From: Cloacibacillus porcorum
Lineage (GTDB): Bacteria; Synergistota; Synergistia; Synergistales; Synergistaceae
Assembly (NCBI RefSeq): GCF_001701045.1
Contig: NZ_CP016757.1
Span: 1 to 64,000 of the forward strand
Direction: 5' to 3'
DNA: 64,000 nucleotides
The notes below the pieces were generated by a model. The model was not told the DNA's origin and searched no databases. It worked only from the letters and a program-made list of their open reading frames with translations. Every line of letters begins with the position of its first letter. Positions within the stretch are counted from its first letter, which is position 1. The position numbers and the translations under genes are program-made. This document shows positions 43,936 to 48,615 of the stretch, one piece after another.

Positions 43936-44146
43936 TTATGTGTCTATCCTTGTAAATTCTCTGATTGTTTTATTTCTGTATATCAGATCCTCCCTCACGG
44001 AAAAGCCGCGGTTTTCCCAGAAGGCGTTTCCCGTCTTGTTGCGCGCGAAAACGACAAGCGCGGCGGCGGTATGGTAGATATATCCCCTTCTGCCATCATG
44101 ACCGCTGATGATTACATAGAAGAGCAGAGGCGGCGGGCCATTTTAA
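43936..44146 (-). pseudogene. GNAT acetyltransferase remnant lacking the acetyl-CoA loop
   Basis: The minus-strand frame reads FYVIISGHDGRRGYIYHTA directly joined to ALVVFARNKTGNAFWENRGF and ends NKTIREFTRIDT before a stop (43938-43936). The usual VPEYRGRGIG-type acetyl-CoA segment of about 30 residues between these parts is missing. There is no start codon; a stop lies just upstream in frame. It is therefore a degraded acetyltransferase gene. It lies 3' of the symporter at 44312. The plus-strand ORFs across this region are antisense shadows. Confidence 0.7.
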
Positions 44147-44311
44147 AGCTTCGGCAAAAATATTGCCGTCCAAACGGGCTTATGCGGGAGCCGTTCCCGC
44201 CGGGTATGAAAAGGCCCCCGCCGCCTCTGTTGCTGTTTTGGCGGCGAAGGGTCTGATTGTACGTTCTATGGACATTGGGTCTATGCGAGGATATCTTTTT
44301 CGGTATCGTCC

Positions 44312-45757
44312 CTATGCCTCCGCTCCCGCTTCGGCCTCCACCCTCACTCTCTTCGCGCAGAGGGCGAAGATCGCCACCGAGGCGAGGATTCCGGGGATTA
44401 TCGGGTGAATCGCGCCGAGGATTCCCGGGGCGGCGAGGCCGGTCAGCCCCTTCGAGGTTGAGGCGTAGGCGGCGGCGTACCAGGCGATGGAGCCGAGGAA
44501 ACCGCCGAGCGAGCTGAAGAGGGCCGCGCGGGGGCCCGCCTTGGGGCCGAAGGCCAGCAGGCCGAGGTAGGGGACCATGATCGCGCAGGCCAGCAGCGTC
44601 CAGCTGGTGGCGCAGATCACGGCGATGATGGAGCCGCTTTTGAGCGCGAAGATGCCGCTGCCGAGTGTGCAGAGTACGACGGCGATGCGCCATGACCAAC
44701 CCTTGAGTTCCTTTTTGAGCACGTCGCGCCCAAGGCTGCCGCTTGCGATGTGGAGCAGAGCGGAGGCGGTGGAGAGCGAGGCCGAGACGATTGCCAGCGC
44801 GAATAGCTGCTGTCCTATCGCAGGCAGGAGGTTATGCACAAGGGTCGGGAGCACGGTGTCGGGGTTCGTGATGCCGCCGCCGAGCATGACGCGGGAGAGC
44901 GCGCTTGCGAAGTAGGCCCCGCCCACCACCACGGAGAGTGCGAGCATCGCGAGGGGGGCCGCCTTTTTCGTCTCCTCCATACTGCGCAGCGCGAAGTGGC
45001 GCTGGATCAGCTGCGGCTGCGCCCAGATGCCGACGGAGGTCACTATCGTGAGAAAGATGACGTTGAGGCCGCCGGCGCCGCTGGAGAGGGCGAGAAATCC
45101 GTTATCGGCCCCTTTGGCCGGCGGCAGCGCGGCGAGCTGCTGCAGTCCCGCGACGGGGCCGCCTACCGCTCGGAGGAGCGCGATCAGCAGCGCGCCGACG
45201 CCGATTATCATCACAAGCCCCTGGATGGCTTCGGTGTACAGCACTCCGCGCAGGCCGCCCCAGATGACCGAGAGGCCGACGATCGCCACCAGCGCCACCA
45301 GCGCCGCGTTCACGGAGATCGGGAGCACTCCCGCCACCATCACAGCCGCGCCCTTAAAGACCGCGGAGCCGTAGACGACGAGAAGAACGACGGAGATGGC
45401 GCCGAGAAAGGTCTGCAGGACCGGTATCTGGTAGGCTTTGGCCAGCAGCTCCGCCGGTGTGCGCGCGTCGAGCTTTCTCTGCCAGAGGCGCGTCGGCCAG
45501 GCGAGGAACCTGTAAACGAACCAGGTGCCGAGCCAGACGTTGCCGGCGGCTACGAGCAGCATTTGCAGCCCGAAGAGGTAGCAGAGGCCGCCGAAGCCCA
45601 CCAGAGCCACGGCGGAGATGTAGGTGGCGACATAGGCGAGCGCCTGCACGACGACGCCGACCTTACCGGGCAGCAGTGCGTCGTGGCTGCGCGAGTATTT
45701 GGCGATGAGGACGAGAACGAGGGCGTAGCCTATCCAGAGCGGCGCGAAGGTGAACAT
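44312..45757 (-). CDS. Sodium:solute symporter, predicted tyrosine/aromatic-responsive
   Basis: This 481-aa SSS-family symporter has about 13 hydrophobic segments. It contains GLRGVLYTEAIQGLVMIIGV, AIVSASLSTASALLHIASG and the N-terminal ISAVALVGFGGLCYLFG. The mRNA begins with a leader carrying a Tyr-rich peptide ORF and an intrinsic terminator (see those entries). A 33-residue membrane protein precedes it with one base between stop and start (TAAAATG). The leader suggests that expression rises when charged tRNA-Tyr is low, so the transporter likely imports tyrosine or a related aromatic compound. Direct proof of substrate is absent. Confidence 0.85.
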   Translation of the reverse strand: MFTFAPLWIGYALVLVLIAKYSRSHDALLPGKVGVVVQALAYVATYISAVALVGFGGLCYLFGLQMLLVAAGNVWLGTWFVYRFLAWPTRLWQRKLDARTPAELLAKAYQIPVLQTFLGAISVVLLVVYGSAVFKGAAVMVAGVLPISVNAALVALVAIVGLSVIWGGLRGVLYTEAIQGLVMIIGVGALLIALLRAVGGPVAGLQQLAALPPAKGADNGFLALSSGAGGLNVIFLTIVTSVGIWAQPQLIQRHFALRSMEETKKAAPLAMLALSVVVGGAYFASALSRVMLGGGITNPDTVLPTLVHNLLPAIGQQLFALAIVSASLSTASALLHIASGSLGRDVLKKELKGWSWRIAVVLCTLGSGIFALKSGSIIAVICATSWTLLACAIMVPYLGLLAFGPKAGPRAALFSSLGGFLGSIAWYAAAYASTSKGLTGLAAPGILGAIHPIIPGILASVAIFALCAKRVRVEAEAGAEA

Positions 45758-45758
45758 T

Positions 45759-45860
45759 TTACCTCGCCCTCCTTGCGATCATCACGATAGACCAGGCCGT
45801 ACTCCAAATAAGCGAAGCTCCCGCGCATACTACCCAAAGATCCGTTCCAAACATTTTCAT
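45759..45860 (-). CDS. Small membrane protein, symporter accessory subunit
   Basis: This 33-aa ORF encodes a single predicted helix (LWVVCAGASLIWSTAWSIVM) followed by a positively charged end (ARRAR). Small accessory proteins of this size are known immediately upstream of some SSS symporters. A GGAAG ribosome-binding site lies close to the ATG at 45860; a second ATG two codons later has better spacing. Its stop is one base before the symporter ATG, so they are translationally coupled. Confidence 0.75.
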   Translation of the reverse strand: MKMFGTDLWVVCAGASLIWSTAWSIVMIARRAR

Positions 45861-45914
45861 TACTTCCTTTCATCGTTAAAATTTTATTTATAAATTTTTA
45901 ATTGCCCGCAATAT

Positions 45915-45951
45915 CAAAAAAGGACCGCTGCCCCTGAGGGCGGCGGTCCTT
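45915..45951 (-). terminator. Attenuator terminator in the symporter leader
   Basis: On the minus strand AAGGACCGC (45951-45943) pairs with GCGGTCCTT (45928-45920). An inner GCCC/GGGC stem and a 4-base loop extend it, followed by TTTTTT. The hairpin lies between the leader peptide ORF and the accessory/symporter genes, so transcription must read through it to express them. No minus-strand gene upstream (46092-46238) would need it as an ordinary terminator. Confidence 0.85.
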
Positions 45952-45989
45952 GAAGTATCTTTCAGAGTTATTACCTTATGCTGTCTGAA

Positions 45990-46091
45990 TCACTTCGTGG
46001 AAAACACCGAAAACCCCGAGGCATCGTCTGTGCGGGGATAAGCATAAAAGTAATAATAATAGCGGCTGTTATTAAATATTGCCTTTTCCAT
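45990..46091 (-). CDS. Tyrosine-rich leader peptide of a putative attenuator
   Basis: This 33-codon ORF starts at ATG 46091-46089 with GGAGG 7-8 bases upstream and stops at TGA 45992-45990. It contains six Tyr codons within eight codons (RYYYYFYAYP, codons 10-19). This is the hallmark of a ribosome-stalling leader that senses charged tRNA-Tyr. RNA segment UUAUUACUUUUAUGC (46056-46042, Tyr codons) is complementary over 14 bp (one bulged base) to GCAUAAGGUAAUAA (45981-45968). UGCCUCGGGG just after the Tyr codons can pair with the terminator loop and 3' arm. These are the elements expected for alternative structures. The ORF has a ribosome-binding site, promoter and terminator in the correct order. 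Confidence 0.78.
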   Translation of the reverse strand: MEKAIFNNSRYYYYFYAYPRTDDASGFSVFSTK

Positions 46092-46146
46092 CGCGCGTGC
46101 CTCCTTTGGTTTCGAAAATCTTTACCACTTTTCGTTGGTGAAGTGA

Positions 46147-46181
46147 ATGATACGCCGATATTATCTCCCTGTCAAGACAGG
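46147..46181 (-). promoter_or_regulatory. Promoter and overlapping operator of the attenuated symporter unit
   Basis: On the minus strand TTGACA (46175-46170) and TATCAT (46152-46147) are 17 bases apart, a near-consensus pair. The perfect inverted repeat CCTGTC-TT-GACAGG (46181-46168) covers the -35 element, as a repressor site would. Transcription would start near 46140, about 50 bases before the leader peptide start. Confidence 0.7.
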
Positions 46182-46238
46182 ATTTCAATTTTTCGGGGCT
46201 TTTGTTAATTGCAAAAGTAAAAGCGTCCCCAAAGAGAA

Positions 46239-46553
46239 ATGAGCATCGCGTTAACCTCTGCGGATGAGGACGCGGCGGCCCGCCTGCGCAGGGCGCGCGC
46301 CGAGGGCGGCGAACTGTTGCTGGAAGAGCCGGAAGAGAGCTTCGTCGCGGAGGAGGAGAGATACGCGGAGGCCGAACTGTGGGCGACGCTCGGCGGCGTC
46401 CTCACCGCGAAGGAGCTTAAGTTCACGCGGGCGCTGTCGGAGGGTCGGAGCCAGCGTGAGGCGGCGGAACGGCTCGGCGTAAGCCGGCAGGCCGTGGCGG
46501 AACGGCTCAAAAAAATCCGCGTGAAGGTGAGGGAGGCGCTGACGATAGAATAA
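46239..46553 (+). CDS. Sigma-70 region 4-like HTH protein
   Basis: This 104-aa protein has an acidic N-terminal half and a C-terminal helix-turn-helix (LTAKELKFTRALSEGRSQRE followed by AAERLGVSRQAVAERLKKIR) resembling sigma-70 region 4 or a LuxR-type HTH. No region 2 is present, so it is not a full sigma factor; it could be a fragment or a small regulator. The ribosome-binding site (AAGAGA) is weak. It is divergent from the attenuated symporter unit and could read the promoter-overlapping repeat (speculation). Confidence 0.55.
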   Translation: MSIALTSADEDAAARLRRARAEGGELLLEEPEESFVAEEERYAEAELWATLGGVLTAKELKFTRALSEGRSQREAAERLGVSRQAVAERLKKIRVKVREALTIE

Positions 46554-46674
46554 GAGGAGACGGATAATCGGGGAAAAAATAAAAAGGCTTCACAAACGCC
46601 AAAAACTGCGGTAGGATAATGCGTGAACCAACAAAATATCCACAGTAAAAATACTTAATAAGGAGACAAAAAAG

Positions 46675-48615
46675 ATGAAAAAACATCATAATGACCATAA
46701 GCTAAACCGGAATACCCCCCCCCAAGAACTAAAATCAAGTTTACTTTGTCGCTCACCCTCTCTCTTAATCTTTCTCTTACTGTCACTTACACTAGTATTG
46801 GGCGCGGCGCGGAACGCCGCGGCGCTGACGAGCGCGGACGTCGTCTATTACGGGGCATACCCGCAGTCCGGCACATCGGATGACTTCAAGGTGGAGCCCG
46901 TTCTCTGGCGCGTGCTCGAAGTGAGCGGCGATAAGACGGCGCTCATGCTTTCGGAAAAGATACTGGACGGCGGCGTGTCATTCAATCCCGATTACAGCGA
47001 TACCGATCCATACTATTCCTGGTGGAGCGAATCGCAGATCCGCAAATTCCTCAATGGCAAAGAATATGTCGAGTCGGTCTCAGCGGATGTGACCAAGATA
47101 ACGGTGAGGAACCCGAAGCCCTATTCCTTCTACGGGAAGGCCTTCTCCGCGGGCGAAGGCGGCGGGATAATAAAGGCGGATGTGGACAACTCGAGCACAC
47201 GGGGTGCTACCCCCGGTCCCAAGACAACCGATAAAATATTCCTCCTTTCCTACGCCGATGCGAAAAATACTGCCTATGGTTTTGCCAATGATGATAATAG
47301 CAGTAGTTCCCGTAAAGCGGAGCTTACCGGCTATGGCGCGTCGCAGGGAGTCATGAGTAATACGGAAGGTAACAAGAAGTATGGTTATTGGTGGCTTCGT
47401 TCCCCCGGCGGCGGCGTCTACTGAGCGTCAGACGTCGATAGCGTCGGCGGCCTCGACGATGGCGGCGTTTATCTTGGGGCTGTCGGCCTTCGTCCGGCTT
47501 TTCATTTAAATCTTGAAAACATCATCTTCACATCTCCCGCCGCAGGCGGGAAACAGGATGACCTGACCGCCTCGCTCTATAAGCAGAGCTACGCCTCCGA
47601 CGATAAGGGAAGAGATGAACACAAACTGACCCTCGCGACAAATACCTACAAACTCGTCTCTGCCGACGTTACCTCAGGGAAGATAACCGCCGCCGCCAGC
47701 GTTGACGTGGCCTACTCCGGGGCCTCCACGGGCGCGGGCTACCACCTCGCCGCCGTTATCACGAGCGGCGACCGCTCCCTCTATTACGGACGGATAAAGA
47801 GCCTTGAAACGGCGGCCGACGCGTCGGGCGCCGCCACCTTCGTCATCCCCGAATACCGCGAGGGCGAAGAGGTCTATATTTTCGTCGAGGGCCGTAATGA
47901 CAATGACGACTATAAGACGGATTTTGCGGGCGTGCCGATCTGTATCGCGGGAAGCGGCAGAACGATAGAGCCGCTCTCCGAAGATGTGGAAGAGCCGCGC
48001 CCGGAGACAAAATTTGTGACCGTAAATCCCTCGGAGCTGACCCTCGTAAAGGGTTATGACAAAAAACTCACGGTATCCTTTGCGCCCGAGGGGGCGCTGG
48101 AGGAGGTAACCTGGAGCAGCGACAGCCCGGATGTCGCCGCCGTCGACCCCGTGACGGGAGTCGTCAGCGCGCTGAAGGCGGGGAGCGCGAAGGTCACGGT
48201 GAAGGCGAAAACGAGCGGTAAAGAGGCTTTCTGTACCGTCACGGTGACGGAAAAGCCTCAGGCTTCCGGCCTGATACTCACACCCGCGGCGATGACGGTC
48301 AGCAAAGGCGTGACGGAAAAGATAACCGCCTCCTTCCGGGGTATCGCCGAACAGCCGCTGACCTGGAGCAGCAGCAAAGAGTCGGTCGCCACGGTGGACA
48401 AAGAGGGTAAGGTTACCGCCAAAAGCGAAGGAACCTGCGTGATAACGGCGGTCACAAAAGACGGCAATTACAGCGCCTCCTGCGAGGTGAAGGTGACGGC
48501 GGCGACGGTGGTCCACGGCGGTGGCTCAGGCGGCTGCAACGGAATCGGCGCCGGCGCGCTCGCGCTGCTGGCCATGCTTCCCTGCCTGCTGATAAGGGGC
48601 AAAAGGGAGAGATAG
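46675..48615 (+). pseudogene. Secreted DUF6273/Ig-like surface protein with in-frame stop (Synerg-CTERM)
   Basis: One reading frame is interrupted only by TGA at 47422-47424. The first part has a signal peptide (LLIFLLLSLTLVLGAARNAA) and a domain ending in YGYWWLRSPGGGVY, a DUF6273/C-type-lectin-like module. After the TGA the same frame continues with VGLRPAFHLNLENI, completing the domain's usual end. Two bacterial Ig-like (BIG2) repeats follow (about codons 440-600). The C-terminus GGGSGGCNGIGAGALALLAM plus basic residues fits the Synerg-CTERM sorting signal. The simplest view is a nonsense-mutated surface adhesin or enzyme. A GTG at 47707 could start a truncated C-terminal product. AAGGAG precedes the ATG. 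Confidence 0.65.
46715..46723 (+). repeat. C9 homopolymer near the 5' end of the surface protein gene
   Basis: Nine consecutive C residues fall at codons 14-17, before the signal-peptide hydrophobic core. Such tracts slip during replication, changing the reading frame and switching surface proteins on or off. The frame shown here (C9) is the one that encodes the signal peptide. Confidence 0.7.

Follow-up and report, generated by a model that had tools for sequence, protein, structure and literature searches.

The minus strand of the window (the whole 64,000-nt stretch of DNA analysed here) very probably carries a tyrosine-codon-read, ribosome-mediated transcription attenuator of the starvation type, positioned before a small membrane protein and a sodium:solute symporter of the SSS family. 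The original prediction, made from the sequence alone, had proposed a tyrosine-specific attenuator of this kind, and the interpretation is now supported by conservation of the leader, by co-evolution of its pairings and by a re-coded paralogue located upstream of aroE. We infer that the ribosome stalls, and the operon is switched on, when tyrosine is low, and that tyrosine is the substrate of the symporter. If so, ribosome-mediated attenuation extends to tyrosine as a further sensed amino acid, and does so in a phylum for which no described example was found; in addition, an orphan sodium symporter together with its unnamed 31-aa partner gains a testable substrate.

Organization of the locus

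All parts of the regulator are encoded on the minus strand. The sigma-70-type promoter, TTGACA-N17-TATCAT, is present where it had been proposed (46175–46147), scores 11/12, the highest among nine promoter-like sites in the region 44000–48000, and has its box kept in relatives. The predicted leader ORF of 33 codons (MEKAIFNNSRYYYYFYAYPRTDDASGFSVFSTK, 46091–45990), identified from the ORF list and from its orthologues, is preceded by the Shine–Dalgarno sequence GGAGG (46104–46100), which varies little or not at all in alignment A1. The control codons, hereafter segment 1 (46061–46038), include six tyrosines in eight codons, exactly as claimed; because Tyr accounts for only 2.9% of the codons in the long ORFs of the window, the probability of encountering at least six Tyr in eight codons is as low as 1.5e-8 per site. 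The motif CCCCGC (46037–46032) directly follows and is a candidate for pairing with the CGGGG that opens the antiterminator strand, in a short sequestering hairpin. The antiterminator strand itself (segment 2, CCTCGGGG...CGGTG...TTCC...GAAGT, 46021–45991) ends with the leader stop codon TGA (45992–45990). Beyond the stop codon lie segment 1' (AGCATAAGGTAATAA, 45982–45968), complementary to the Tyr codons, and segment 3 (45956–45933), which comprises ACTTC, the 5' arm of the terminator and its loop, and pairs with segment 2. The intrinsic terminator with its T tract (AAGGACCGCCGCCCTCAGGGGCAGCGGTCCTT and the T tract, 45951–45915), a further element of the original prediction borne out by the sequence and by covariation in A1, separates the leader ORF from the structural genes.

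The first structural gene had been described as encoding a 33-aa membrane protein. An ORF of that length is indeed found at 45860–45759 (minus strand) and encodes a single-helix protein that is a conserved partner of the symporter, but translation probably starts at 45854, yielding 31 aa, because the orthologues begin with MFGTDLW. No NCBIfam or Pfam family was matched by the small protein. The symporter gene follows at 45757–44312 (minus strand), as anticipated, and its product matches the SSF profile PF00474 with an E-value of 8.5e-29 and 101 bits against a cut-off of 22.8, whereas the score against TIGR00813, 99.9 bits, is under the cut-off of 184 for that model. It resembles only distant SSS models, and no match to chains of solved structures was obtained at 1e-5. 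The symporter is a probable tyrosine importer. The window genome has both chorismate synthase and prephenate dehydrogenase, so that tyrosine import is not obligatory for this organism, and on the same grounds the idea that the symporter accompanies tyrosine auxotrophy was discarded here. Six other SSS genes checked in the same genome (L002–L007) are devoid of a Tyr leader.

On the plus strand, an ORF divergent from the leader promoter (46239–46553) encodes a protein of 104 aa whose helix-turn-helix resembles that of sigma region 4; this ORF is absent from all retrieved loci except copies of the window itself. Further along the plus strand (46675–47424) lies the gene for a DUF6273 protein that appears to have a signal peptide.

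Conservation across Synergistales

Orthologues of the symporter (E <= 1e-60) were identified in 26 of the 183 genomes of the order, the window's own included, which are distributed over four families; a scan of public genomes yielded nine orthologues, all in MAGs of Synergistaceae, Synergistes or Caccocola. Upstream DNA was readable in 25 of the 26 genomes, G122 being left out at a contig end. The original prediction had been made contingent on conservation of the leader and its Tyr run in relatives, and both are kept in all 25 testable orthologues, invariably in the order Tyr-codon leader, terminator, membrane ORF of 31–36 aa and symporter (in L030, the start of the leader falls off its contig). 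The Tyr runs themselves are variable, including YYYYYYAYP (L008), YYYAYSYP (L010), YYYRYYAYP (L021), RYYYYPNP (L035), YVYSYIYAP (L037), YYYYLYFTP (L038) and YLYVYAP (L040); the weakest orthologue leader, L036, has two Tyr only, in the form YAY, and the leader of one lineage combines Tyr and Cys (L016). TTGACA, spaced 16–18 nt from a -10-like hexamer, was present in each of the 20 leaders with enough upstream DNA.

Across the families, conservation of the peptide is confined to the YxY(P/A) core, and the N-termini are unrelated. The DNA located 3' of the Tyr codons is strongly conserved in 13 close leaders. In L015 and L027, length changes directly 3' of the Tyr codons alter the reading frame, yet both retain the RNA motif CCTCGGGG...GGTGTTTTC...GAA, which argues that, in these leaders, the stretch is selected as RNA rather than as peptide.

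Mutually exclusive RNA pairings

Folding of the leader RNA with and without a ribosome had been proposed as a check on the prediction. If the last Tyr codon is occupied by a ribosome, the rest of the window leader RNA folds into a long antiterminator, in which CCTCGGGG/CGGTG/TTC/GAAGT (46021–45991) pairs with ACTTC/GGA/CGCCG/terminator 5' arm and loop (45956–45933). The 10-base stretch that had been expected to pair into the terminator does so, but constitutes only the start of this longer strand. When the ribosome is placed at the stop instead, 16 of the 21 leaders keep an unbroken terminator in their minimum-energy fold; in the window leader, the terminator is retained in folds begun further upstream or downstream of the stop codon. 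In nested folds, the antiterminator and the pairing between the Tyr codons and the post-stop segment are mutually exclusive. In every one of the 29 leaders examined except L036, strand 2 occupies the interval from the Tyr codons to the stop codon, beginning 1–27 nt past the last Tyr codon (about 17 nt in the window leader); in L036, it is located 3' of the stop codon.

Shuffle tests on single sequences were weak for many leaders, whose antiterminators exceeded chance only modestly. The antiterminator of the window leader gave a modest signal, with 12 of 200 shuffles being as good, and 12 of the 21 leaders stood at <=10/200. A cross-lineage swap test was therefore used, in which strands were exchanged among ten divergent leader groups in 20,000 permutations. 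The leaders' own antiterminator pairs sum to -244.8 kcal/mol compared to -201.4 +- 10.7 for the permuted ones, and the swap test for segments 2 and 3 across the ten groups returned p = 5e-5. The second pairing, that between the Tyr codons and the post-stop segment, is likewise supported by the swap test, the p value being 1e-4 for the close family, 0.0004 once near-identical leaders are pruned and 0.0034 across the ten groups; in the window leader, the predicted 14-bp complement of the Tyr codons corresponds to 45982–45968 and the duplex amounts to -13.6 kcal/mol. The PaaK-like and lyase-like leaders described below took part in these tests.

Covariation of the antiterminator within the close family is weak, in an alignment that is highly conserved. 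The terminator does covary in A1, with nine double-change cells, a number reached by none of 500 shuffles. The CCCCG/CGGGG hairpin is 98.5% paired in this highly conserved alignment and, because it displays no covariation there, the sequestering hairpin is regarded as a candidate; by inspection, it is longer in L038. In ribosome-free folding, many leaders form much of the antiterminator, implying that the default-off state depends on timing.

A re-coded copy of the leader upstream of aroE

A covariance model built from the close leaders and searched over the 183 genomes of the order matched the symporter leaders as well as unexpected sites. The window genome contains a second copy of the scaffold (G000 418432–418558, E = 5.8e-18; locus L110, G000:C1:418380–418700) encoding MGKALLNKNFYFYWFFTFPRSFDASGFLAFFAK, and its counterpart in G132 (L111, E = 3.6e-16) differs by one residue. 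In both copies, the control codons carried by the same scaffold are a mixture of Phe, Tyr and Trp, and the gene located 3' of the leader is that for shikimate dehydrogenase, aroE, assigned above curated cut-offs. The codon/post-stop duplex of the G000 aroE leader is -18.1 kcal/mol with its own strands and falls to -8.4 and -9.9 when these are swapped with those of the symporter leader; judged from these sequences, the post-stop segment is changed along with the codons. For G132, pairing the aroE leader with its own segment (-13.3) offers no advantage over pairing it with the segment of the symporter leader of that genome (-13.9). The aroE copy in the window genome represents a natural codon-swap experiment, whereby both the codons and the RNA segment pairing with them have changed, and the use of Tyr codons at the symporter versus Phe, Tyr and Trp codons at aroE suggests that codon choice is meaningful. 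After aroE, a gene for a TctC-like transporter subunit is found in G000 and genes for a TRAP-type transporter in G132.

The scaffold has also been combined with a different transporter. In G167 and G166 (L112 and L113), the same Tyr leader precedes a non-orthologous SSS symporter of about 520 aa, without the small membrane ORF, so that the regulator is retained and the transporter exchanged.

Other aromatic leaders in the order

Further leaders were found by pattern searches, the matches of which were then read individually; many matches to the SD-ATG-TAY-run pattern were discarded as coding genes or as being out of frame. Tyr-only leaders followed by terminators precede PaaK-like phenylacetate-CoA ligases (L046–L049, L054 and L056), and in L060, L061 and L072 a Tyr leader, such as MFTCFGTCVVLNAYYYYGSEPFARRLEP, and a terminator precede a gene of the tyrosine-phenol-lyase/tryptophanase family; the PaaK-like and lyase-like genes score under the PaaK, lyase and tryptophanase equivalog cut-offs. 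All these leaders have the same architecture as the symporter leader. Control by starvation of a supposedly catabolic enzyme of the lyase family is odd. Chorismate synthase was not detected in the lyase-leader genomes G031, G032 and G105, nor in the g30 ligase-leader genomes G025 and G027. Mixed Phe/Tyr leaders (e.g. VYFYFYYWF) with a terminator were found before another SSS symporter (L131–L133), and in G169 a Phe/Tyr leader, MASKGKFFVGCDNYFYFYFIGGQWRFYYYAADPL, precedes a gene for DAHP synthase (L143); matches to prephenate dehydrogenase and chorismate synthase are located on the same contig and strand as the latter leader.

The Tyr leaders at the lyase-like and CoA-ligase-like genes raise the question of whether these enzymes make or break tyrosine. 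We tentatively consider it possible that Synergistota possess a modular, re-programmable family of attenuators, in which the scaffold is copied between genes and acquires new control codons, Phe/Tyr/Trp in place of Tyr, along with a changed pairing segment, and in which tyrosine-phenol-lyase-like and PaaK-like aryl-CoA ligase genes are likewise turned on at Tyr starvation by Tyr leaders built in this way. Should this be true, these ‘catabolic’ enzymes would run towards tyrosine synthesis in the genomes without chorismate synthase.

Proposed mechanism and alternative explanations

In the proposed mechanism, transcription would begin near 46140, and the leader ORF would be translated behind the RNA polymerase. 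When charged Tyr-tRNA is available, the ribosome would clear the Tyr codons and arrive at the stop codon that ends segment 2, thereby covering this segment, while the freed Tyr codons could pair with segment 1'; with segment 2 covered, the terminator would form and transcription would stop. When charged Tyr-tRNA is scarce, the ribosome would stall on the Tyr codons and leave segment 2 free to pair with segment 3, so that no terminator would form and the small membrane protein and the symporter would be expressed.

Three alternatives deserve consideration. The strongest, which we nevertheless regard as unlikely, retains the attenuator but posits a broader signal, such as general aromatic or charging stress, and a symporter cargo other than tyrosine, for example, an aromatic compound or a dipeptide. 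The match of the symporter only to distant SSS models would fit such a cargo, as would the mixture of Tyr and Cys in the leader of L016 and the mixtures of Phe and Tyr in related leaders before other genes; by contrast, nearly all control codons specify Tyr in the window lineage and in most orthologues, and the F/Y/W set is found at aroE, which speaks for a meaningful codon choice. Considerably less probable is arrest of the TnaC or Erm-leader type, whereby a Tyr-rich nascent peptide would stall the ribosome together with free tyrosine or another small molecule and the operon would be induced by high tyrosine. Such an arrangement would accommodate the Tyr leaders that precede usually catabolic genes, namely, those of the tyrosine-phenol-lyase/tryptophanase family and of the PaaK-like ligases. 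These leaders are the sole fact possibly pointing to induction by high tyrosine, and the enzymes may alternatively have a role in tyrosine synthesis in these genomes. Against peptide sensing, a conserved nascent peptide as in TnaC was not found among the leaders, the peptides having only the Tyr core in common and the frames of L015 and L027 being different; moreover, the antiterminator strand is placed directly 3' of the Tyr codons, as in attenuators of the starvation type, and the codons of the paralogue were changed to F/Y/W before a biosynthetic gene. Finally, that the leader ORF of 33 codons yields a functional small protein of the symporter operon, with a terminator that merely marks an internal site of processing or attenuation and senses nothing, hardly appears credible. 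The conservation of the ORF, its good ribosome site and its location upstream of another conserved small ORF would fit this reading, but frame-shifts occur with the RNA kept, both alternative RNA pairings co-evolve and, across the families, conservation of the peptides stops at YxY(P/A).

Comparison with known attenuators

Trp, His, Leu/Ile/Val, Thr and Phe codons serve as control codons in the classical attenuators. The leaders of the trp, phe, his and leu operons of Escherichia coli are subject to ribosome-mediated transcription attenuation (PMC1183508, PMC11802643). The leader described here shares with them a short ORF rich in the relevant codons, a mutually exclusive antiterminator and intrinsic terminator, and a stop codon positioned to mask the antiterminator strand; in its pattern, the leader peptide is like PheL. 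Unlike in the E. coli leaders, the control codon is Tyr, a sodium symporter is controlled in place of a biosynthetic operon, the phylum is Synergistota, the codons have an additional pairing partner past the stop codon, and one genome has two copies of the scaffold that differ in their codon sets.

Aromatic codons are also read in the AroR leader of Corynebacterium glutamicum aroF, in which Phe-Tyr-Phe codons are reported to mediate attenuation that responds to the availability of Phe, not Tyr (PMC11802643, citing Neshat et al. 2014). Both AroR and the present leader combine aromatic codons with attenuation, but their sequences are unrelated and, in our case, Tyr codons alone dominate. Comparative genomics has also predicted candidate uORFs upstream of shikimate genes in which Phe/Tyr codons adjoin a terminator (PMC8632094, PMC6429828); one of these, uORFC-13-1, precedes aroF and occurs only in Acholeplasma and environmental sequences (PMC8632094). 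Intergenic regions of Thermovirga lienii were among those screened in PMC6429828, and that screen may overlap a T. lienii leader of the present kind. In the literature covered by our search, most of it outside subscription journals, we found neither a published Tyr-specific example of ribosome-mediated attenuation nor a leader of this kind in Synergistota.

In Firmicutes, the charging of Tyr-tRNA is sensed by Tyr T-box leaders, which can control tyrosine transport. T-boxes for tyrosine have been noted (PMC1262725), and, with regard to a T-box in our locus, no Rfam family was above threshold anywhere in the 64,000-nt window. The two devices differ in the way in which charging is read: the T-box RNA binds the tRNA directly, without a leader peptide, whereas the leader described here would depend on a ribosome translating tyrosine codons.
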